64,000 bases of DNA, taken from NCBI GenBank assembly GCA_022393335.1, contig JAJEKB010020600.1, positions 29,249 through 93,248 of the forward strand. Direction: 5' to 3'. The notes under the pieces are model-generated. The model saw only the letters and a program-made list of their open reading frames with translations. It searched no databases and was not told the DNA's origin. This stretch comes from Macrotrachela quadricornifera (lineage: Eukaryota > Rotifera > Eurotatoria > Philodinida > Philodinidae). This document shows, in pieces, positions 713 to 32,072 of this stretch; the first letter of the stretch is position 1; the number at the start of each line of letters is the position of its first letter. The translations under genes were made by a program, and so were the position numbers.

Positions 713-1507
713 TTATTTTTTTCGTAGAAATGTTGTACCATCTCCAAGACGTAATTGACAAACATCAACAGTTTGATCTAATTTAATTTTCTCATTTAAT
801 TTTCTAATAGTAACTGTATTAATATCTGTTTTCGAATGATCAACAACAAAACCAGTATAAAGTGTATTATCAATCGCTATAAGACCATTTGGACGTAATA
901 ATCGAAGACATAAATCATAATAATTAACATAATTTGGCTAAAAAAAAAAAAAAAACAAAAATAATTTTTTTAAAAAAAAATCAAATCAAATCAAACTTTA
1001 TCAGCATCAATAAAAATAAAATCAAAACTATTTTCACCATATTCATTTAATAAATCATTCAGTGAATCAATAGCTGGTTTAATACGTAATTGAATTTTTT
1101 TTTCAAGATCAGCTTTTTTCCAAATATCACTTCTAACATATTTATCATCAATATCTAATGTAATAACAAGACCATCATTAGGTAAAGCCATAGCCATTGC
1201 CATTGATGTATAACCAGATAATGTTCCAACTTCAATACAACGTTTATATTGCCCAATTTTAATTAACATTTGAAAAAATTGTGCTGCATCTGTTGAACCA
1301 ATCATTAAAGCAAATTTTTCTAAATATTTTATTTTAATTTTTGTTTTTTGTTTTTTTTTAAATAAAAATAAAATAAAAACCTGGTAAAGAGTTTGTGTAT
1401 TCAAGTAATTCATTTTGTTCTGGTGTTGGACGAAATGTATGTTCTTTTATATAATGATCAATTGGATCATTTGATAAATGAGATTTTATATCGATTAAAT
1501 TTGTCAT
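713..1507 (-). CDS. O-MT: Class I SAM-dependent O-methyltransferase (MysB-like)
   Basis: Three exons on the minus strand: 1507-1381, 1319-997 and 937-713, with GT-AG introns of 61 and 59 bases. They join in frame to 224 residues. The fold is the caffeoyl-CoA/catechol O-methyltransferase class. The SAM loop EVGTLSGYTSMAMA is at residues 72-85, the metal-binding Asp in FIDADK at about 147, and the second metal pair DN in AIDNTLYTG at 173-174; the end, LRLGDGTTFLRK, matches the family C-terminus. From memory the closest match is the cyanobacterial enzyme that methylates demethyl-4-deoxygadusol (MysB), which I infer is its role, because it sits 220 bp downstream of a DDGS-type cyclase on the same strand. 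The catechol type is the alternative. The N-terminus is shorter than in MysB. The family is secure; the substrate is inferred from context. Confidence 0.85.
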
Positions 1508-1726
1508 ATGTTTAGGTTTAGTTTTTTTTCTTTTTCTGAAGATAATATATGAGAAATATTTATAAGATTTTAGAAAAAAAAAGCTTTTTTTATAGTAATA
1601 TATAGTCTTAAAGTTAGATTAATATAAATAAAAAAAAGATGAAATATTAATGCCAGTTTATAATATATTTCTTATAGAATCAATAAAAAAAATACTTATA
1701 AAATCAATATTATATTTACTGACTAC
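1508..1726 (-). promoter_or_regulatory. Intercistronic spacer with candidate trans-splice acceptor
   Basis: Only 219 bases separate the cyclase stop from the methyltransferase ATG. A good acceptor (ATTATCTTCAG, AG at 1537-1536) lies 28 bases before the ATG and no upstream exon is evident. Bdelloids add a spliced leader to many mRNAs, so this could be a trans-splice site of a two-gene transcript. It could equally be a chance match, or the acceptor of an unseen 5' UTR intron. Confidence 0.35.
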
Positions 1727-3215
1727 TTAACTAATGTTTTTTTTTTGTAAAATTTGACTTGATTCAGCAATTGTATGATATCCATTTTGATGATTATTAC
1801 CATTTATTTTTGTTATTTTAGATGAAAATTTTTCTGAAGAAACAGGATTAAGAATAGTTGTTTGTTCAATTATTTTTTTATTTAAAATAATATTATTATT
1901 ATCATCATTATTATTATTAATATGATTTATTTCAATATAATCACATTGATCAATATATTGATCAATTCCATCACCATTACGTGGATAATTTTGAATAATT
2001 TTTTTATGTTCAATTAAATTTTGTTCTAGTTCATCATATGTTAAATCATTTAAAAAAATACATTGACCAATAGAATTTGGCATAGCAGCACGTTGATAAC
2101 CATCACGTGTTAACATAATTGATTTCATTGCTTTCCATATAAGATTAATATCAAATAATTTATGATCTAATGCAAGACCAACACGTGACATTAATTTAAA
2201 TATTTGATCACGTTCATCAATTGTTATTAAATTACGTTTAAATGCAATTGTTATTGAAAAAGCCATATCAATATTAATAGCATGACCATGTCGAAGTGGA
2301 ATTATTGGTGTTAATTCAAGTGTTGGTGACCATGTATGACCAAAAGCAATAATTCTATCAAGCATTATTTCATGTAAATTTGGTACTCTAAAATAATAAT
2401 TTAATAAAAGAAAATCAAAAATCAAAAAAAAAAAAATGATTGAAAACATACTCAAGTTCAAGCATTTTTTTAATCGAAAGATAATTAATTTGTTTTGCAA
2501 CTTCTCGTATTTCATCTGATGAATTATCCAAATAACCAAATTTAGTTGAAATTAATTCTTCACCATATTTATCAAGTAAATTAAAAACATTTTTTTCACT
2601 AACAATTGAAATTTTAACTAATTCAGCAAGACCATTTCTAATATGTCCTTCAGGTAATGTTTTTAAAAATGAAAAATCAAGAAATGTTATTATAGGTGCA
2701 TGATATGCTCCAAGACGATTTTTTAATTTTCGATGATTAATTCCAACTTTAATTGATACACTTGCATCAATTAAACCAATTAATGTTGTTGGTATACGAA
2801 TAAAATTTGAATTTCGTCTATATGAAGCACATGCATAACCAGTTACATCAGTTAAAACACCACCACCAATAACAAGTACTGGTTCTTTACGTACAAGACC
2901 ATATTCAACAAATGTATCAATTATATCTAATTTAGTTTTTATTGTTTTACATAATTCACCACTTTGAATTATTTTTATTGTAGATTTTATATTATGTTTA
3001 GAAAAATAATTATTTATTAAATTTTCATATAATTTATAAACATTATTATCAATTATAATTAAACAACGTTTCCATATTTTATAACAATCAGCTAAATCAC
3101 TTTTTTCTTCATTAAATATATTATCAACAAAACGAAAATCATATGTTATTTTTTCATAACCCTCTATATGAAATCCATCATCAATAGATGTTACTGTTGC
3201 TGACATATCCGACAT
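1727..3215 (-). CDS. DDGS: Sugar phosphate cyclase, DDGS/EEVS family (MysA-like)
   Basis: Two exons, 3215-2452 and 2387-1727, around a 64-base GT-AG intron; 474 residues. The fold is 3-dehydroquinate-synthase-like: NAD loop GGGVLTD at about 117-123, the family signature [12 protein letters not shown] at 149-160, and metal ligands Glu198 (LAELVK), His272 (GHTWSP) and His288 (RHGHAINID). The block [16 protein letters not shown] and the YPRNGDGID motif at about 390 are those of desmethyl-4-deoxygadusol synthase and 2-epi-5-epi-valiolone synthase, which cyclise sedoheptulose 7-phosphate; dehydroquinate synthase itself lacks them. DDGS is preferred because the neighbour is a free O-methyltransferase, not the MT-Ox protein that accompanies animal EEVS. 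Residues after about 405 are an Asn-rich tail beyond the usual length of roughly 410. An in-frame ATG at 3248 would add 11 residues; the 3215 start resembles the family better. Confidence 0.88.
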
Positions 3216-12692: not shown

Positions 12693-15047
12693 ATGTCCGA
12701 TAATAACAATGAATTTTCTAATATTTCATTATTAATCGATGAGCTTATCATTTTACAAACAAATAACAATGATAATAATGGAGTTGAAGTTTACGATGTC
12801 CTGCTTTTCAAATTATATACAGAATTAAGTTCTCTTCAAAATTCTTTTGAAATATCAATTACACTTAATGAATTGGAACAATATTTTATTAAATTAAATC
12901 CTTTATTATCAACATCATCACTATCTTCATCTTCTACGTTAATGAGTTGTTATATAATGATACTTGAAAAACTTATTGAAACAGAGTTTTTTGTACAAAA
13001 TATGCAAAATAATGTATCGAAATGTGATGAATACTACATTTTGGCCATGGATGCTTTAAATACAAGAGAAAATTTGGATTATATGCAAGGCAATGAAAAT
13101 CTTCATACAGATTTACACGAACGTTACACAGAATTATTGTTATTTGCAGCTGAACAAGCGATTAGAAATCGGAATTTCCATAGGGAATCGTATAATGTTC
13201 AACAATGGAATTCAGATAAATCATATTTTGAACAGAAATATAAATCATTTTTAAAAATACTTGTATCTTTTATTAATAGAATAATGGACACAAATGAAAA
13301 TTTCTTATATGCACTTCAGTTTTTCGTTAGCCTATCAGACGATACTAATCTCGTACCGGAGTTAGTTGAATGTGATTTACCAAAGTATTTAAAAATGTGG
13401 TTATCAACTTTTAATGATAAGAAAGATTTAGAAAACAGTGATTTGTGTGAATTTCTATTAGTAACTATCAACAATATGGCTCGTCATGAAGACGGTTCAA
13501 ATGCTTTAAAAACTGTTCAGATAAATGACACTTTAAAAGATTTTTGGAAATGTTACGAACAAAATTTATCCAAACATTTAACAGCTTTGTATTATACGGC
13601 TTATGCACTAATCGTTACACCTGATGAATTAAAATCTACTATTGTTTTTCATCATGTTATTGATTATTTAATAGAAAGTTTAGATGTTGCTTCACATTCA
13701 CCGAATATGCGTACCGTTACGACACATATTTCTGAAGATCTTGTTGCAGTTGCACGATTAGTAGTTAATGATAATGTTGCTCAATATATTATAAATGTGT
13801 CTAAAATAGATACAAATACAGACGGGCTGACATTTTTTTACGAACTATTTGAGAACTATAATGATTTAACGCTTAATGATTTATATTTAAAACATTTAAG
13901 TCGTATTGCTTTATTTAATATATTTTGTAGTTTTAGTTTTCAAGCAACAGCTCAAAAATTTCTTCGATCAAATAAAACATTTATTGAAATAATTAATAAT
14001 GCTTCTCATTACCATAATGAACGGGGTATTGTCATACAACCTTATTTATTACAACATTTATTATCGATTAAACAAGCAGTAGAAGCTATTTGAATTAATC
14101 TTGATTTATACAAAGATGAAGATCTTGTTCAAACTAGTACATCATCGAAATCAATACATCCTCATGTAATGATATCTTATTCTCATAAAGATATTACATT
14201 TTGTCATGATATTGTTCGTGCTTTAAAATCACATTCAATTAATATATGGGTGGATGAAGACGGACATTGTCGTTCAGGTGATTGTTGGGAAGAAATTGGT
14301 AAAGCTATTAAATATGCTTCATTTGTATTGATTATTGTTTCTCCAGATTATTGTCAAAGTGTATCATGTAGAAAAGAAGCAATATATGTTGATAAACGAA
14401 ATAAAACAATAATTGCTTTATATCCAAATGGTAATAAATATGAACCAGATGAATGGCTTGACATTCGATTAACTGGATCCTATGTACGTTTTGGTGATAG
14501 TGTTAAAAAATCATTCGATAAATCTATTTCTCGTCTATTAGAATATATACGATCAAATGAAAGTAATGTTATTAATTCAATTGTGCCGAAAAATACTTTA
14601 TCTACTCAATCACCAATAATATCAAAACAATCTGATAATTTAGCAAATACTAAAATTCAATCAATAGAAAATATGTCTTGTACAATAACTCAATCTCTTA
14701 TCAATACAAAATCATCTATACATGATTGGACAAAAGATGATGTTCAAACATGGTTTTTAATTGAACGTAAACTATTACCACAGCTTTATAAATTATATTC
14801 ATTTATTGATGGAGATTCACTATTAGAATATGCAAAATATTTTATTCAAGAACATGAACAAGGTGCTAAACAACAGTATGAAAAATTATATAAACGCTTA
14901 CATAATAAATTTAATATTGAATTTTATGATAATAATTATACTGATCTTGTTTCTTCTATGAAAAAATTATTATTAACATATAATCAATCACAAACATTGA
15001 ATACAAAGACTACTAAACAAAAATCATCTCTATGCATAATTTTGTAG
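12693..15047 (+). CDS. Helical-TIR-SAM protein with CaaX box, split by one in-frame TGA
   Basis: The frame stays open from 12693 to 15047 apart from a TGA at 14091-14093. Codons 1-466 encode an alpha-helical region that looks armadillo-like but is not certain. The next 25 codons are open and lead into a TIR domain (about codons 491-620) beginning VMISYSHKD, with WVDEDG, WEEIGKAI and VLIIVSPDYC; the Glu in WEE sits where NADase TIRs such as SARM1 have their catalytic Glu. A SAM-like segment (DWTKDDVQTWF) follows at about 676-750. The protein ends SSLCIIL, a CaaX box of geranylgeranyl type after a basic stretch. SARM1 has the same domain types in another order. Likely a membrane-tethered immune or NAD-cleaving TIR protein (inference). 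The TGA may be a real nonsense allele, readthrough or a base error; if real, the TIR half would need its own start at 14169. Confidence 0.75.
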
Positions 15048-17467: not shown

Positions 17468-20400
17468 TTATAAATTATTTGCAATAATTTCTAACCATGC
17501 CCGTAATTGATCTTCTTCTAATATTTGAAAGATAAAAGATATTTTTTCTTTTAATTTTTTATAATATTCAAAATTAATTGTATTTCGTCGAAATTTATCG
17601 AGATTGAATAGAAAATTTTGTGTATCGTCAATAAGTAAACATTCCAATGTTTTCATTAAGTAGAATAAACTTGAAGTTTTATCATTAAATTTTTCAAAAA
17701 ATTCCATCATGTGAGTAAAACATGTGAGTGTTGTTTTCTTTGGTTTTGTGATACTCTGACGAAAAATTTGTAATAATATGTCGAGAAAAAGAAAAATTGA
17801 ATTCGATGATTGGTTATTATTGTATTTCGATTTAATTCGATTATAAGTTTTATCAATTTGTGGATGATGAACACTTTTAGCCAAATTTATGTAGAGACTA
17901 TCATGAACAAAGTATGTTGATATAAAACGTTGAATATATAGAGTACATTCAGTTGAATATATTTGTAATAGTTGTGTTAGGATAGAGGATATTTTAGCAA
18001 TTTGTTTATGATGAAAAATATGATTAAATAAATCGGTAATAAAGTTTGATTCAACATCTATTTGATAATATAAGAATTTAATTGCCATAAATGTCCCGTA
18101 TATTAAACAATCAAATGCAAGTTCAATTTCATTTTGAGATAGACTCATTTTATACATAATTATTTGTAATGTGATAATCATTTCAAAATGTTTTGGATTA
18201 TTCTCATCATATTTTGAATATTGTTCAATAAAATAACTTCGATAAGATTCATTATCATTAGTTTTCATTCTTGCCATTTTCTTATATATATTCCACACAA
18301 TTCTTGAATCGATTTCTGTCGTTTTTATAAGAGCTTTATTATAATATATTTCTGCATGTTTATAATCATGATGATGACGATAATGATCAGCATAATTAAT
18401 TAATGTATCATATGTACATGTTTGTTCATCAATGATGTTAGGAAGTATATTTGAATTTGGAGCTATATTTGAAAGCCATTGTTGACTAATTTGCATACTC
18501 GCACCTATAATTTGTCGAGCATACTCCGTGCCTAGACTATTGACAGTAAGTTTTATTTGTGGAAGTACCTCTAATAGAGAAGGAATTAATGAACTGATAT
18601 TTGTTGGTGATTGATATTCAACAGCTTTATAACCATATTGTTCTGCAGATTCGATATCACCAGATTGCATAGCAGCCATTACTAATAGAGAATAAACGTA
18701 TCCAAGAAAATCTTTATTATTAGAAAAAGAAGGATTTTTTACTGCTTTATTCAAACGTTCAATACTTTCGGACGATCTTTCATTTTGTATTAGATAATAT
18801 CCATACATTAAGTTAAAAACACCAAACATTCTATGTGATGATGGATAATAAGGTTCCATATATGTGAAACCTTTTTCCATGGTATTTAACGCTTCGAATG
18901 TATTGTTTAGTCTAGAATATGCTGCAGCCATTTGCATATAAATTACTCCGTTAAAAACTGTTCCAAGTGAAGAAGGTATATACGATGTTATTTCTAATGC
19001 TTCTTCCCAATGATTGAGTGCATTGACAAAGTTTTGTTGTTCAGAACAATTATGACCTAAGATCACTAGACGTAATTTTTCATTAACTTCGTCGTCAGAT
19101 TGATTTAGGCTTATGAAAGGTTCAATCATACTATTGGTTTGATTTGTTTGTTCATCAGGATCATATAGTGTTGTATTAGGAGTAGAAATAGATATGCCAA
19201 GCTGTGATGATACAAATGTTTCCACGAATGATTGAAGTGGTTGTAATGCTTTAGGAAATGATTTTAATGCTGAATTTCGTTCCTCTAATATTGTATAAAT
19301 TACTCTTAATAATGCATATATAATCACTTTTAATTTATTATCAATCGATTCATTTTCTAAGAGCATTTTAAAATATTGAATAGATTTATTATATTCATCA
19401 CATAGAAGTAAAAATCCTCCAAAACAAATTAAAGATGCTGTATCATTAAGATTAAAATTTATTTGATCTTGTTCATTTTTGTCTTTAAAATAAAAAAAAC
19501 TATTGAGTAAATCGAATAGAAGACAGATAGTTGTGTCTTGTGAAAGCATAATATTATTGTTTGATTCTATGATTAATGTATGTAAAGTGGGTTCATTATC
19601 AATGAGTTCTTTCATTTGACATTGTTTCTTATAAGCATTAATAACAAATAATTGTGTTATATCAGTAAGAACAAATTTCATTAGTTCTGTGAATGGTCTA
19701 TAATAACCATGAGCATTTGTTGTGAATAATTGTTTAAATACAATAAATGGTAACTGTTTGTTAGAAATTTGATATAGATAAGTTTTTGTATCGTTCACCA
19801 GTTTTAGTATATTTTTGTCTTGTTTGCAATTTGTTAATTCTAAATTAACCATCCAATATTTATTGTGTTCTGTAATTGAGTTCACTTTGAATACAGAAGA
19901 CATAGTGAAGAGAATTTCTTTTTCATCTACGAAGTTACTATCCTGAGTAATATCAGCAAATGTCTGGAGTTGCTTGTCGTTTTCTACATTATTAATTGTG
20001 ATCTTAAAGATTATGGATGTGTTCTTATCAAGACCAGAACCAAATATTTCGGCCACCTCTAAATCTATTGTTGTGGATAAAAATGTATTCATCGATATAA
20101 GACCACCAATACTTTCTCGAATTTTTTCTACTTCACCTATTCCCCAATCTGCTTGTCCCCGATAAACAATCATTGGAAAGCGAAGTGTACCATTTTTCTT
20201 CTGTTGTATATGCAATTGTTTTAACTGAATATTAAGATCTTTAATAATGGAATGAAATGGCACTATAAAATCGCTATTGAGAGTTCGACATGCCTTATTC
20301 AATGCTTTAAAAAGAAATGATGCACGTGTATACCAATTGATAGCTGTATCCGGTTTGTACGTAATTCGAAATTCATCTATATCTGCTTGTTTCATTTTAA

Positions 20401-20623
20401 AAGAATTATCTACAATAGTTTCTTCTATTCGCTTACATACCGTGATAACATGTTCGTTATCAGTTGATGAACGAGGAATACTAAGAAGCACATCAAGCAT
20501 AAATTGATGCCACAAAAATGTTCTACCATCTTCATCTAATTCACCAAGCGAATATTGTTTTAAATCGTTACGAAATATACTAAAAGGTAAGTTAGATTGC
20601 ATTGTCTTCGCCCTTTGATACAA
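17468..20623 (-). CDS. ADP-ribosyltransferase with TPR-like repeats
   Basis: A single-exon frame of 1,051 residues. Residues about 140-265 form an arginine-type (R-S-E) mono-ADP-ribosyltransferase domain: VYRGQ with Arg155, FLSTT with STT at 183-185, and the ExE motif in DEKEILF at 234-236. All three catalytic elements are intact, so transfer of ADP-ribose from NAD to arginine is expected. The rest is helical with tetratricopeptide-like pairs, clearest around LRLVILGHNCSEQQNFVNAL, FNGVIYMQMAAAYSRL and TCTYDTLINYADHYR (about 525-800). No signal peptide, so probably intracellular. ART-TPR fusions are, from memory, an expanded bdelloid family. Target unknown. An ATG seven codons downstream (MQSNLPFS) is an equally good start. 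Intronless, unlike most neighbours. Confidence 0.85.
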   Translation of the reverse strand: MYQRAKTMQSNLPFSIFRNDLKQYSLGELDEDGRTFLWHQFMLDVLLSIPRSSTDNEHVITVCKRIEETIVDNSFKMKQADIDEFRITYKPDTAINWYTRASFLFKALNKACRTLNSDFIVPFHSIIKDLNIQLKQLHIQQKKNGTLRFPMIVYRGQADWGIGEVEKIRESIGGLISMNTFLSTTIDLEVAEIFGSGLDKNTSIIFKITINNVENDKQLQTFADITQDSNFVDEKEILFTMSSVFKVNSITEHNKYWMVNLELTNCKQDKNILKLVNDTKTYLYQISNKQLPFIVFKQLFTTNAHGYYRPFTELMKFVLTDITQLFVINAYKKQCQMKELIDNEPTLHTLIIESNNNIMLSQDTTICLLFDLLNSFFYFKDKNEQDQINFNLNDTASLICFGGFLLLCDEYNKSIQYFKMLLENESIDNKLKVIIYALLRVIYTILEERNSALKSFPKALQPLQSFVETFVSSQLGISISTPNTTLYDPDEQTNQTNSMIEPFISLNQSDDEVNEKLRLVILGHNCSEQQNFVNALNHWEEALEITSYIPSSLGTVFNGVIYMQMAAAYSRLNNTFEALNTMEKGFTYMEPYYPSSHRMFGVFNLMYGYYLIQNERSSESIERLNKAVKNPSFSNNKDFLGYVYSLLVMAAMQSGDIESAEQYGYKAVEYQSPTNISSLIPSLLEVLPQIKLTVNSLGTEYARQIIGASMQISQQWLSNIAPNSNILPNIIDEQTCTYDTLINYADHYRHHHDYKHAEIYYNKALIKTTEIDSRIVWNIYKKMARMKTNDNESYRSYFIEQYSKYDENNPKHFEMIITLQIIMYKMSLSQNEIELAFDCLIYGTFMAIKFLYYQIDVESNFITDLFNHIFHHKQIAKISSILTQLLQIYSTECTLYIQRFISTYFVHDSLYINLAKSVHHPQIDKTYNRIKSKYNNNQSSNSIFLFLDILLQIFRQSITKPKKTTLTCFTHMMEFFEKFNDKTSSLFYLMKTLECLLIDDTQNFLFNLDKFRRNTINFEYYKKLKEKISFIFQILEEDQLRAWLEIIANNL

Positions 20624-22200
20624 CTCTATTCCGACAAGTTTGTTCTCTTAAAAGTAAAATCGTAAAGATGATAGTTCTTTTCTTTACCTTGAAATGTTAG
20701 AAGAGGCGTGCGTTTAGAGAATTATTATATCACTCTCTTATATAAGATAATAAACGAATAGAATACAATAAATTCTAGTTCTTTTTTTTACTCATCGACG
20801 CAATAATAACTGATAATAAATTGTTAAAGATAGTTTTCATACTTTTCTTGATGCAGAGGACTGAAATTTTTATCACATATATATGTCTAATCAAGGTCTT
20901 TTTGTTTTGAGAATTACAACTCTACATCAATTTTTGTACTTACTTTCAAAGGATAGACCTTCGGATGGTCAACTAAAAACATCATAAAATATTTAGAAAA
21001 CTTTTTTATTTTCATATCCGATTTTCAATCATTGTCATAACTACCTTATATAAATACTGCATTGATAAGATGAATAAAGCAAATGTGTAGTATACTGCGT
21101 GATTGTGATCAAAAGTGATATTTCATGATTCACGATTGTTAACATTCATATTCAATGAGAAAAAACTTGATAGTTTTTATGATATTTTTAGTAAAAAGGC
21201 AAAAAAAGTAACTAACAGGAATAAATATAGGGCAGACTGAAAAAATGTTTCTATTCTGCTCTGTAAACGAACCAAAAAAGATGAGAACTATTTATCTGGC
21301 AAGTGTATTACCTTCTTGACAAAAAGCAAGCATACAAGAAAGCAGTCAATGTCGGGATTAAGATCCTGACTTCAGTGAATGAAATTCAGATATGAGTAAA
21401 GATGAGTCAGTGGTAAGCCATTCTAGTATTAAGAAATAATATCAATTTTATTATTTAAGAATGAATCAACATATATCAATAGGAAGTGGTTTTAATATTT
21501 ATTAATGCTATCTATTTTTATATTTAGACGTGCATCAAGACATCAACGATGAGTCATTGTCATATTATAAAACACTATCTATTATTGTACTTAGATATGG
21601 ATTAAGATATGATTACTTTCCGATTTTGACCCCACAAAATAAGAATGAGAGTGTGGATGGTGTGGAATTAAAGTCAGAAAGTACCAAAAACAATATCAAA
21701 GGAATAAACTACATAAAATTACACAACTTCTTCAAAATTTGGAACCTCATTATTTTGCAGAAAACTAATTTTCCTGTATTTATGTCGATGCAATGCTTTT
21801 TCTATTTAGATAAATTCTTGATGATTTTTTATTCTGATTATCACTCTCCATCTATCAGTAATTTCACGAATGATTAAAACCAAACCTAAAAAGTTGAAAT
21901 AAAAATCCTGTTACGAGAGATATCACAAACATGCCATTAATCTGCGTAATAGTTTTATATCAGTTCCTTTTCTGTTTTATTATTTTGAATAAGAGTAGAA
22001 ATAATAAATATTTTTATTAAAAAAGAATCTGTAATTTTGGTAAATATTGTGTGATTTTATTAGTTTTTGGAAATTTCTACTGACAGAACTTATCATAAAT
22101 CTACATTGTGCCACCTACTCACAATCTCATTTCTCTTTATTTTCTTGTATCTACAAAATTTAGTTATATCTATTATATTATGTTCTTTTTATTTCAGAAA
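20624..22200. other. Intergenic
   Basis: No gene recognised. A frame at 21530-21877 follows an acceptor-like ATATTTAG but shows no family features. The stretch holds the upstream regions of the divergent ART-TPR and EGF-7TM genes. An unseen first exon of the receptor could lie here, because an acceptor-like TTTATTTCAG ends at 22197. Confidence 0.45.
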
Positions 22201-27072: not shown

Positions 27073-29535
27073 TTTTCTATATTTGTTTGAAAGTAAAATT
27101 CAAGCTGATAATGATACTGGCCATAGTCAAAGTTTTTCTGTTTGTGTAAAATGCAACTATATTTATTCTTCTCTTTCATTTTTTTTCTTATATGTTATTG
27201 CATATTCGTGCTAGAGAAAAATTAAAACTAAATATAAAACAAAACTCCAATAGTCATAATAACATCATGAGTAAATATGAAAAAAAAAATATTCCAGCAA
27301 GATGTAACAACCTTCAATTTCAAAATATGGGTATAAAAAAAAATATGTAATTTAGCTTGATAATACTTAATTTCGTCGTCTATTCATCATAAAAGTATAC
27401 CTATAGAAAAAAAAATCTTTCTCCGTTATTGACATAGTCTATTCGATTTATAACAAAAATTATTTTACTGTTTGAATAATATTAAACATACCATTCACAT
27501 ATTATAAGTAAAATCTTTTAAATACAAAATTCGTGGTTATAATGATTATCATATCAGTTAAATATAATTTAAATGAAATTATTTTGTCTTTTCATATAAC
27601 AAATATTCTATGAAAATTTCTATATTTTTCGCATCTCATCCATCTTGTTCAAATACAGTTTGATAGCACAACATCCAATCTATCCTTGGAGTACAAAAAT
27701 AAACAAAATATTTTTCATTTTTTACCAAAAAAGAGGGAGAATTATCCTTAACGATCGACTGACTTTTAAATTTCTACATCTACTTTTCTAATAATAGGAG
27801 ATGCAAAGAAAGAATCATTAAAATTTCATAATGTTCTTCTATAAAGTGGTAGGTCAGAATAATATTTTTCTCGAAGTCATATACAAACGGTTAAATTGAA
27901 CATTTCTTCATAAGATATTTGTTTATTTCTATTGGCAATGGTATTGGCAAATAGCAATGATATTCTTTGTTTCATTCTCTTAATAATATACAGAGAAAAA
28001 GTAAAAAATCATCCATTTCTTTCGTTCTCATTTACACCGCTTATACATTGATAAAAGAAAAAACTATTACATGTATATTATATTATATATGCTCTGTGAT
28101 ATTTGTTTATTTATTGTAATAGTCGTTTAGCTGGTCTTTCATTTTAACGAACGGCAATGTAATAACAGAGAGAGCGAGATGGAACACCTGCTAAACTAGT
28201 ACTATGTTTATCGTTACATAAACTCCTTTAAATATCTGAGATTTATCTAAACTAGTAAATTATTGTTACTCCTTACAGTAGACAAACACCTGAAAAACGT
28301 TCCGAAATCGTTTGATAAGTTGAAATGTCTGCGAAGTGGCAAAGCTTTATCAAATATAGTCGTAAGAAGATGTTTTTTTCGACTACATATTTCCTCATCT
28401 CGCTTGGATTCTTCGATTCTTTTACTTCCTCCTATATACATCTTTCGTAAGTGCAGCAATTCTCTTTATCTACACTCAAGGTTAAACATTACTCATTAAT
28501 GCTAGACCGATTAGAGTTCAATAAATGACGAAATAATAAAGAGCAATGTAAGACCAGTCCATCAATCGTCTTTTTTCTGCTTTTCTTGCTATTTCTTTTT
28601 CATCTTTTTCCTTCTCTCATTATGTTTTAGTTAGCATGTTCAAGTGTCACAATAAAGAGAGTAACAATAAAAACAAAACTAGAATTTTGAAAAAAAGATA
28701 CCATTTTCATACGAAGTCATGTTTTCTGTTTCATCAAGGATACCATGAATCTTCAACTGCAATAACAGTGACTAAAATGCCTGATAGAATTCATTTTCTA
28801 CACAAGCTGGTAAAGAAGACATTCAGCCTCATACAAAACTTCTAGGATCCACTACAATCTTATTTTAAAAAATACAAATTACGAATGGCATAAATGATAA
28901 TATCTCAAGCAAATTATACAGAAAACAAAAACAATACAGATAAAACATTAAAAAAAACCTGCATTTACTGGTATCAATGAACCGTAGGAGAAACTTTAAT
29001 AAAAGTTTAGTAAACAGAATATAAGTTCAAGATTCAGGAATATATGTAAGGTACCAATAATTTTAAAATGTGGAAGAAAATTGAATAGACATCTTTGATA
29101 TCTCATTTCTTACTAATTTTTTTCTAATATATTTCATTAATAGCAAGATCGGCGAAAATGGAAATGTAGAGAAGTATATCTACTATCTTTGAAAAACGTT
29201 GTCTTTTAAATTTCTCCTTCCCTCAATTTCTGAACCTTCAGATAGGCTCTTTGTAGATTATTATCAACAATTGAATTTAAGAGATATATATCTTGCAATT
29301 TTGTGTGACAATGTTAGATAGCGTTACATGTTCTGTATCGTGTATTATCTAGATTATTCTCTTTTCCTTCGTTTCAGCTGATTATTATTTATTCTTCATT
29401 CTCTTATGATATATATCACTTTTGTGTTCTCCTCTCTAACTATATATATTGTTTCGCTTCAGCTGACGATAATCCATTCTGTATTCTTTTATTATATGAT
29501 ATGTATTCACTCTCTCCTTGTGGTTCTAGATTATA
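27073..29535. other. Intergenic
   Basis: About 2.4 kb between divergent genes, with no gene recognised. The opposing frames at 28247-28499 are mutual shadows without family features. A T/C-rich tract around 29340-29520 precedes the flavoenzyme gene and may hold its promoter or an untranslated first exon. Confidence 0.5.
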
Positions 29536-31605
29536 ATGGTGAAATTTATCACGAATTTGTTCTTCATTTTGCAGGTGTATATTTTTGAAATCACCTTTAC
29601 TACAGCAAATTATGGTATTAATGATGAATTTGCAAGAATTAGCAATGATGATTTACATATATGTCTTTCAATATCATTACCATTGTCAATACGTACTATT
29701 TATCCATGTAACACTTTAGCAAATCAAAATAGTTCTCAATATCAATGTGATCATTTCAATATTAATGAATTGTCGAGTATTCATGGAGGTCGAATTTCTC
29801 ATTTTCCTGCTGTTATTGTTTATGTAATGGACAGTAGCGACATCCAAAAGGTAATAAAATGTGCAACAAAATTAAATTATATTGTAAATGCAATAAGTGG
29901 AGGTCATAGTTATGAAGGCTATGGTTTAGGTTCAACGTATAACAATATTGTTATTAACATGGAAGCAATTAATTACATTAATATTAATCAATATGATGGA
30001 ACTGGTACATTTGGAGCTGGTGCAAGACTTGGTCCAATTTATTACAAAACATATCAGTATAATTATACGATTAATGCTGGTAGTTGTGCATGGGTAGGAC
30101 TTGCAGGTCATGCACTTGGTGGTGGTTATGGTTATCTTAGTCGATTACATGGATTATTATCTGATAATATTTTGGAAATGAAAGCTGTTAATGCTCAAGG
30201 TAAATATATTTTAGTTACATTATCTTTCTCGAACAGAAACCAAATTCAGAACATATGAAAACTATTTTACTTTTTATTTACAAGAATTTCAGGTTTTTTT
30301 TTCATCTAAATTTTTGCTGGATCGATAAAAACCTTTGCTTTTCAAAACATATATTACGTATCATCTGTTGAAGATTTTCTCATAATCCTCGAATATCACA
30401 TTGATTTTGGACAAATAGATTATTCAACATTTAAGAATCAAATGTCTTATCTTCTACACTTCTAATCCATCCTAAACTAATGTTATTTTTGTTTAGTTAT
30501 GTTGTCATATTCTAGTTTAACAGTATTTTCTTTATTCTTCATTGTTTTATTAGATTATTACACAGTTTCCAAGGATGAAGCAGCGGACTTCAAATCTGAC
30601 AATCTAGTCTGGTAGCGTAAGGCTGTGAAAATAATCTAGATCTATAGTTTTATTAATTTTGTTTATACATCTAGATTAAATATTTTTTTTTTAGGTGAAT
30701 TATTAATAATAAATAAAACTCATGAGCCAGAATTATATTGGGCATTACGTGGTGCTGGTGGAGGTTTATTTGTTATTGTAACAGAATTTAAATTTCGTTT
30801 AATTAAACCTCCATCACTCGTTAGAAGTTTTACATCTATATGGTATCCAAATGTAACAAAATTAGTAATACAACAATATCAATCATTATTATTTAATGAC
30901 AAAATTACAAATTTTAATAATAATCTTGTTTTATTAATGTTTGTACGAAAGATTAATGTAGAAATTTCAATACTTTATTTTGGTACTGAATTAGAAGAAT
31001 TTAATAAAACTATATCATTAATATTGGCCATGTTACCAACTCCATATAAAATAGATTTATCTAAACAAGATTGGTTAACATTTGTTTATAAATCATCAGG
31101 AATTGAAAATAATAATAATGATCATCAACAATTGATGCTTGATCATTTAACATATCCAACATATTATTTTAAAGCGAAACATTTATTTTATAATCAACCA
31201 ATAAGTAGTTATAGTCTTGATCAATTTATCGATCAATTAACATTAGGCGACGGTCAAATCAGTATTGGATTTAGTCCTTGGGATGGATATTTAAGTACAA
31301 TTCCAGTTAATGAAACAGCATTTCCACATAGACATTTTAAATTTGGTATTCAATTTACAATTTTTCCTAATGATAAACAACATGAAAAAGAACAAATAGA
31401 TTGGTTAAATAAAATATATTTGACTATTTATGATGATTCAACAAAATATTCATATATTAATTATATTGATAGAGATATACTGAATTGGATGAATGTTTAT
31501 TATCATATACATCAACAAAGATTAATTAATATTAAACATATTTATGATAAGAATGATCGATTTTATTTTGAAAAAACGATAGTAAAGTCAAGCGAAATAA
31601 ACTAA
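29536..31605 (+). CDS. Berberine-bridge-type FAD-linked oxidase
   Basis: Two exons, 29536-30199 and 30695-31605, split by a 495-base GT-AG intron; 524 residues. An N-terminal hydrophobic leader (FITNLFFILQVYIF) suggests secretion. The FAD-binding type 4 domain has SGGHSYEGYG with His124 and GSCAWVGLAGHALGGGYGY with Cys184, the two residues that tether FAD in bicovalent berberine-bridge-like enzymes. Exon 2 has the substrate domain and the BBE C-terminus (YINYIDRD, then QQRLINIKHIYD). Relatives oxidise sugars, alcohols or alkaloid precursors; the substrate here is unknown. The family is mostly plant, fungal and bacterial, so horizontal acquisition followed by intron gain is plausible. An acceptor-like TTTTGCAG lies just inside the proposed leader (about 29574), so the true N-terminus could come from another exon. 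The stop is 20 bases before the assembly gap. Confidence 0.85.
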
Positions 31606-32072
31606 TACATATTATTGAACTATCANNNNNNNNNNNNNNNNNNNNNNNNNNNNNNNNNNNNNNNNNNNNNNNNNNNNNNNNNNNNNNNNNNNNNNNNNNN
31701 NNNNNNNNNNNNNNNNNNNNNNNNNNNNNNNNNNNNNNNNNNNNNNNNNNNNNNNNNNNNNNNNNNNNNNNNNNNNNNNNNNNNNNNNNNNNNNNNNNNN
31801 NNNNNNNNNNNNNNNNNNNNNNNNNNNNNNNNNNNNNNNNNNNNNNNNNNNNNNNNNNNNNNNNNNNNNNNNNNNNNNNNNNNNNNNNNNNNNNNNNNNN
31901 NNNNNNNNNNNNNNNNNNNNNNNNNNNNNNNNNNNNNNNNNNNNNNNNNNNNNNNNNNNNNNNNNNNNNNNNNNNNNNNNNNNNNNNNNNNNNNNNNNNN
32001 NNNNNNNNNNNNNNNNNNNNNNNNNATAGTAAAGTCAAGCGAAATAAACTAATACATATTATTGAACTATCA
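31579..32072. other. Assembly gap (400 N) flanked by identical 47-bp copies
   Basis: N occupies 31626-32025. The 47 bases before it (31579-31625), which include the last codons and stop of the flavoenzyme gene, recur exactly at 32026-32072. This is best explained as the two contig ends overlapping and not being merged. The true gap may be zero. Confidence 0.9.

Follow-up and report, generated by a model that had tools for sequence, protein, structure and literature searches.

A candidate mycosporine-like amino acid gene cluster in the genome of the bdelloid rotifer Macrotrachela quadricornifera

Mycosporine-like amino acids (MAAs) are natural sunscreens of cyanobacteria and corals, and bdelloid rotifers are noted survivors of drying and radiation. 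The window analyzed here, meaning the whole stretch of 64,000 nucleotides, derives from the bdelloid Macrotrachela quadricornifera (assembly GCA_022393335.1; 450 Mb in 5695 contigs) and corresponds to C4227:29249-93248, where C4227 denotes contig JAJEKB010020600.1 and a window base equals the C4227 base minus 29248. Near its left end lies a spliced gene for a sugar-phosphate cyclase of the desmethyl-4-deoxygadusol synthase (DDGS) type, MysA, followed on the same strand by a spliced class I O-methyltransferase gene. Inspection of C4227:1-40000 revealed two further genes to the left of the window, coding for a MysC-like ATP-grasp protein and a D-Ala-D-Ala ligase-like protein (MysD), so that four enzyme classes were linked within 8.5 kb (C4227:23936-32463) as a candidate cluster for MAA biosynthesis. 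The features are:

Window 1727..3215, minus strand: MysA, DDGS-type sugar-phosphate cyclase (exons 3215-2452 and 2387-1727; 474 aa)
Window 2388..2451, minus strand: MysA intron (64 bp, GT-AG)
Window 1508..1726, minus strand: intergenic stretch between MysA and the methyltransferase gene (219 bp; cyclase gene 5' of the methyltransferase gene)
Window 713..1507, minus strand: class I O-methyltransferase (PF01596; exons 1507-1381, 1319-997, and 937-713; 224 aa), of a bdelloid family and putatively catalyzing the MysB step
Window 1320..1380, minus strand: methyltransferase intron 1 (61 bp, GT-AG, phase 1, after codon 42)
Window 938..996, minus strand: methyltransferase intron 2 (59 bp, GT-AG, phase 0, after codon 150)
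C4227:28249-26858, minus strand, outside the window to the left of its edge: MysC-like ATP-grasp (463 aa, single exon)
C4227:23936-24976, plus strand, outside the window to the left of its edge: MysD, D-Ala-D-Ala ligase-like (346 aa, single exon)

The genes were separated by 1881 bp (MysD to MysC), 1711 bp (MysC to the methyltransferase), and 219 bp (the methyltransferase to MysA). A preliminary description of the window had proposed a spliced cyclase gene upstream of a spliced methyltransferase gene on the same strand, with the remaining pathway genes possibly to the left; the arrangement was confirmed, with GT-AG introns of 59-64 bp, and both an ATP-grasp and a D-Ala ligase-like gene were indeed located there. 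It had also allowed for a pathway that ends at 4-deoxygadusol, which is now unlikely because the cluster looks complete. Pfam assigned the cyclase to DHQ_synthase (E 1.7e-31) and DHQS_C (E 8.4e-14), and the methyltransferase to Methyltransf_3 (E 1.1e-55) with no oxidoreductase domain. The closest named homologues among the matches listed were from Adineta steineri, with identities of 76% for the cyclase, 89% for the methyltransferase, and 82% for the ATP-grasp protein. A second contig was collinear with the locus (C5005:1020001-1060000), showing approximately 88-96% nucleotide identity in long blocks and 95.5% in the block holding MysA and the methyltransferase gene; these two were adjacent there as well, and all four genes were intact with introns at identical places. 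The spliced cyclase/methyltransferase pair is not a chance finding because of the cyclase score of 520 bits against PDB entry 5tpr, the A. steineri homologues of both proteins, and the intact state of both genes on the second contig.

Comparison of the cyclase with PDB chains gave 520 bits for the best match 5tpr, which we take to be the Anabaena DDGS, compared to 240 bits for ValA (4p53) and at most 114 bits for DHQS chains. The reference set comprised 80 cyanobacterial loci (L001-L080) fetched with the MysA query, and counts of invariant residues and gene order were restricted to stop-to-stop frames that reached 120 aa or more and to hits that passed fixed thresholds of length or score. The cyclase retained 151 of the 174 residues at least 98% invariant across the 80 cyanobacterial DDGS, and its E198, H272, and H288, presumably the metal ligands, were identical in 80/80. 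Ala269 and Thr348 were also the same in 80/80, with Asp and His at these places in ValA; the two positions are reportedly the diagnostic DDGS/ValA sites (Kean 2014). Inspection of the residues separating EEVS from DDGS, which the preliminary description had recommended, returned the DDGS type. Two such discriminating sites are mentioned, and not named, in the available text of PMC4426668, and the cyclase matched 23/30 residues of the fungal DDGS signature (PMC10057719).

Protein trees were built from hand-picked members of 120 listed hits (39 for the methyltransferase, 47 for the ATP-grasp, and 59 for the cyclase) together with window and loci rows. The unrooted MysA tree of 60 proteins (P0023 left out; window MysA flagged for unusual letter make-up) placed the window protein, two named Adineta proteins, and seven metagenome proteins in one ten-row group (support 100/100). 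This bdelloid group sat in a 22-row set with five fungi, an amoeba, and metagenome sequences, split at 100/100 from the other 38 rows that, where named, were cyanobacteria and one Rhodococcus. A shared eukaryotic rather than directly cyanobacterial origin of MysA would fit these data best. Sequence similarity, the active-site residues, and the tree all identify the cyclase as a DDGS, in agreement with the preliminary description, and its predicted product is desmethyl-4-deoxygadusol. Two related observations concerned other proteins. The metagenome protein P0094 (688 aa) fused a DDGS with a MysB-type methyltransferase and grouped with cyanobacterial sequences. In addition, this animal genome carried a shikimate-pathway gene of the pentafunctional AROM-like type in two copies (L093:951-5985 on C4285 and L094 on C4631). 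The first frame contained DHQS and EPSP synthase (855 and 842 aa; Pfam run on the L093 copy), and the next, which is 713 aa long in L093 and leaves the stretch in L094, contained shikimate kinase, 3-dehydroquinase, and shikimate dehydrogenase.

The MysD protein was up to 63% identical to Nostoc MysD, kept 103/125 residues invariant in 40 MysD, and sided with the 40 cyanobacterial MysD versus three remote ligases in a tree (100/100) whose bootstrap had not settled and in which it had a long end branch. PDB D-Ala-D-Ala ligases were distant (at most 64 bits), and the genome contained two close copies and two remote matches. By these comparisons MysD is of the cyanobacterial type. For the ATP-grasp protein, the ten best matches among cyanobacterial mys loci showed 41-45% identity, and its closest non-bdelloid relatives were cyanobacterial MysC-type proteins, the named hits of which ranked below bdelloid ones among the matches listed. 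In a tree of MysC-type rows with no non-MysC outgroup (partial proteins P0273-P0275 left out), the cluster gene fell among 33 bdelloid-like rows, the six named ones all being Adineta proteins (58-61% identity for those of A. vaga and A. ricciae); its subgroup had five members, two being A. steineri. A MysC function is suggested by linkage more than by sequence. An expanded MysC-like ATP-grasp family was observed in bdelloids (P0241-P0272), extending to A. vaga, for which no MysA occurred among the matches listed. Two neighbouring full-length MysC-like ATP-grasp genes were also present in 13/80 cyanobacterial mys loci (L014-L016, L024, L030, L033, L034, L037, L038, L048, L053, L063, and L069).

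The methyltransferase was 55-58% identical to five paralogues in its own genome, two pairs of which look allelic (weaker own-genome matches at 31-44%), and 52-60% identical to other A. vaga, A. ricciae, A. steineri, and Rotaria proteins, compared to 32-38% for ten MysA-adjacent methyltransferases of cyanobacterial loci among the matches listed. In the free tree the cluster gene, its A. steineri orthologue, and a metagenome orthologue lay inside a bdelloid family (98/97), with 13 MysB rows together and apart (100/100) and weak branches linking bdelloid, MysB, and other enzymes (81/24 and 81/75). Intron 1, situated after Leu-Pro of YTNSLP, was common in position and phase to 4/4 script-spliced paralogues (only the first intron of the C4532 paralogue was used) and to a fifth read by eye (C4901); intron 2 did not occur in the paralogues, which carried another intron without counterpart in the cluster gene. 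The EVGTLSGY, IDADKPNY, and IDN motifs, presumably those for S-adenosylmethionine and metal binding, looked intact by eye. The preliminary description had named this enzyme MysB, and as a plain MysB it was rejected on the tree, the number of MysB-invariant residues (48/108), and the shared intron 1, although an approximately unbiased (AU) test still allows MysB descent. In our reading, a duplicated bdelloid O-methyltransferase may have taken the MysB place in the cluster, and linkage suggests that it performs the MysB step. The same description had named branching of the methyltransferase with animal catechol-type enzymes as refuting its interpretation; grouping with a bdelloid family corresponds to this in part, yet the pathway reading emerged stronger, not weaker. 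Separately, an O-methyltransferase paralogue at C4901:387001-397000 (L123) had its third exon broken by a repeat-like insert of approximately 0.7 kb rich in CCGG words.

Gene order was compared with the 80 cyanobacterial loci, the flanks of which reached at most 6 kb so that D or C may lie beyond some stretches. The orders recovered were A B C (31), A B C D (19), A B C with D reversed (10), A B D C (10), and other or incomplete (10), and the 10/80 loci with reversed D matched the bdelloid cluster exactly in both gene order and orientation. Species distribution was taken from the best-120 lists, from which genes may be missing owing to draft assemblies and 90% clustering. MysA and orthologues of the methyltransferase and MysC were all present in A. 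steineri. None of the three was recovered for A. vaga or Rotaria in these lists; both had methyltransferase paralogues and A. vaga also had ATP-grasp paralogues.

Comparison of the C4227 and C5005 copies gave dN/dS values of 0.254 for the methyltransferase (14 nucleotide differences), 0.28 for MysC (23 differences), and 0.164 for MysD (24 differences), which fits purifying selection on these three genes; the evidence for MysA was weak. Third-position G+C was 3.6% for MysA, 6.7% for the methyltransferase, 9.9% for MysC, and 22.2% for MysD, and the higher MysD value may reflect later arrival or stronger constraint.

Candidate genes for all four steps of MAA synthesis are encoded together on both C4227 and C5005, with the methyltransferase and ATP-grasp steps assigned by linkage, and it is probable that this animal-encoded cluster makes MAAs. 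MysA would convert sedoheptulose 7-phosphate to desmethyl-4-deoxygadusol, and the adjacent O-methyltransferase would convert this to 4-deoxygadusol. The MysC-like ATP-grasp would then add an amino acid, glycine by analogy, giving a mycosporine, and MysD would add a second to yield a disubstituted MAA of the type represented by shinorine, porphyra-334, or mycosporine-2-glycine. The cluster would be made up of a MysA of fungal/amoebozoan grouping, a cyanobacterial-type MysD, and a bdelloid-family methyltransferase in the MysB place. Each reaction, the product, and expression are predicted from the gene sequences; use of the product as ultraviolet (UV) screen, antioxidant, or desiccation protectant is plausible, as is a horizontal origin.

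Alternative assignments were considered for both enzymes of the spliced pair. The DHQ_synthase domain is generic and would suit a DHQS of the ordinary kind or an EEVS serving a vertebrate-like gadusol route, but either identity is very improbable and was ruled out by the PDB scores, the DDGS residues at both diagnostic sites, and a score of 187.1 bits on TIGR01357 (aroB), below its cut-off of 305. The genome has a separate DHQS domain in the AROM-like gene on other contigs, and the cyclase, for which the preliminary description had named branching with EEVS or DHQS as refuting, grouped with fungal and amoebozoan DDGS at 100/100. A more serious, though still unlikely, alternative is that the methyltransferase entered with the cluster as a genuine but highly divergent MysB and that the bdelloid paralogues descend from it. 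Its place beside MysA is that of mysB, the tree is weakly supported at its deep branches, and the AU test did not reject a clade of MysB with the three cluster-type methyltransferases (p 0.168, log-likelihood 9.06 lower) or with the whole bdelloid group (p 0.318), MysB being a long branch. Against this stand the strong grouping with bdelloid paralogues in the free tree and the separation of the MysB rows, the far higher identity to own-genome paralogues than to MysA-adjacent methyltransferases, the common position and phase of intron 1, and the occurrence of paralogues in A. vaga and Rotaria, with no MysA for either among the matches listed.

Contamination by bacterial or cyanobacterial DNA, a concern raised in the preliminary description, was rejected and carries a negligible probability: the nearest MysD found was cyanobacterial, but the genes resided on host contigs of 849 kb and 2.35 Mb with eukaryote-type neighbours, two of them contained GT-AG introns, their third-position G+C was 4-22%, they occurred in two diverged copies, and three had orthologues in A. 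steineri. An improbable but weightier alternative is a shorter pathway ending at 4-deoxygadusol or a monosubstituted mycosporine, with the ATP-grasp and MysD genes present by chance and serving other roles. Several observations count against the complete pathway, and those on the ATP-grasp, which comes from an expanded bdelloid family, favour the shorter version in particular. The protein scored 345 bits on NF005315, below the curated cut-off of 406, compared to 512-563 for 4/4 proteins from cyanobacterial mys loci. It is not more MysC-like than its paralogues because it keeps 86/126 MysC-invariant residues, close to the minimum of the 85-97 kept by 32 bdelloid-like relatives. A. vaga has ATP-grasp paralogues at 58-61% identity and no MysA among the matches listed, and in the best-120 lists A. 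ricciae had MysA with no cluster-type methyltransferase or ATP-grasp. The methyltransferase kept 48/108 residues invariant over 77 cyanobacterial MysB, compared to 54 in a Legionella enzyme and 50 in Trichoplax, and MysA, with only 20 nucleotide differences between the copies, gave a high dN/dS (0.595, or 0.416 when restricted to its first 400 codons). Fungi, moreover, end at mycosporines according to the accessible part of PMC10057719. The shorter pathway is nevertheless difficult to reconcile with a MysD that is specific (103/125 invariant residues) and has one homologous copy with no other close relative in the genome, with a gene order also occurring in cyanobacteria, and with the little substrate that MysD would probably have without a MysC product.

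The complete animal-encoded MAA pathway is thus the preferred explanation. A more specific account is conceivable, with doubt slightly outweighing confidence, in which the cluster was built within bdelloids from a DDGS of the fungal and amoebozoan group, a MysD of cyanobacterial type, an ATP-grasp from a MysC-like family expanded in bdelloids, and a duplicated bdelloid O-methyltransferase replacing mysB, for the de novo synthesis of disubstituted MAAs as a UV and desiccation protectant.

Neighbouring frames included TPR/ADP-ribosyltransferase-like, TIR, P450, and reverse transcriptase types. Within the window, a TIR-domain frame (14094-15044) had a counterpart on C5005, as did a TPR protein (17471-20647) in which an NAD:arginine ADP-ribosyltransferase-like segment scored slightly under the cut-off. 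Frames for an oxidase with FAD-binding and BBE (berberine-bridge-type) domains at 29530-31602 possibly represent another foreign gene, and a run of N at approximately 31626-32027, both flanks of which carry an identical short coding sequence, probably marks a gap in the assembly where the oxidase gene ends. No tandem runs of telomere-type repeats occurred near the contig end in the 40 kb examined.

The mysA-mysB-mysC-mysD loci of Nostoc and related cyanobacteria encode the same four enzyme classes, with identities to the bdelloid proteins of 55-60% for MysA (among the matches listed) and up to 63% for MysD. The bdelloid cluster differs in having introns in two genes, host-like base composition, a methyltransferase outside the MysB group in the free tree, and an ATP-grasp of 41-45% identity that is below the cut-off on NF005315. 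Among eukaryotes, the Phaffia DDGS-OMT-ATPG cluster covers the first three steps, and the bdelloid MysA shares its 22-row set with fungal and amoebozoan DDGS; as far as PMC10057719 was accessible, the Phaffia DDGS runs in the opposite direction and fungi are without a gene for the second amino acid. The fourth MAA step is described as being of NRPS or D-Ala-D-Ala ligase type, and red algae and dinoflagellates, which are non-animal and by description differ in having a fused DDG synthase and O-methyltransferase, possess the ligase type as in the bdelloid cluster (PMC9298759, accessible part). Anthozoans (Acropora and Nematostella) likewise have an animal-encoded four-step pathway, the fourth gene being described as NRPS-like rather than MysD (PMC3640398, accessible part), and the DDG synthase and O-methyltransferase of sea anemones and corals are predicted to be fused (PMC9298759), compared to separate genes in the bdelloid. 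The vertebrate EEVS/MT-Ox pair also makes an animal sunscreen from sedoheptulose 7-phosphate using a cyclase and a methyltransferase-bearing enzyme (PMC4426668, accessible part); the cyclase product differs, the bdelloid active site is DDGS-type, and the bdelloid methyltransferase is without an oxidoreductase domain.

In 2013, such genes among metazoans were stated to be limited to anthozoans (PMC3640398, accessible part), and some small pigmented rotifers have been described as "known to have MAAs" (PMC12559811, accessible part). A literature search, in which subscription papers were poorly covered, found no paper on MAA genes in rotifers among the matches listed, judged by titles, opening lines of abstracts, and text passages. 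If correct, the present cluster would represent, within the literature searched, the first bilaterian case of a complete MAA pathway, extending MAA synthesis from anthozoans to a bilaterian, and an instance of operon-like gene order retained or rebuilt in an animal. It would also be a rare example of an animal combining foreign and resident components into a multi-gene pathway, and with the complete pathway encoded by the animal, de novo MAA synthesis by the bdelloid would be directly testable.

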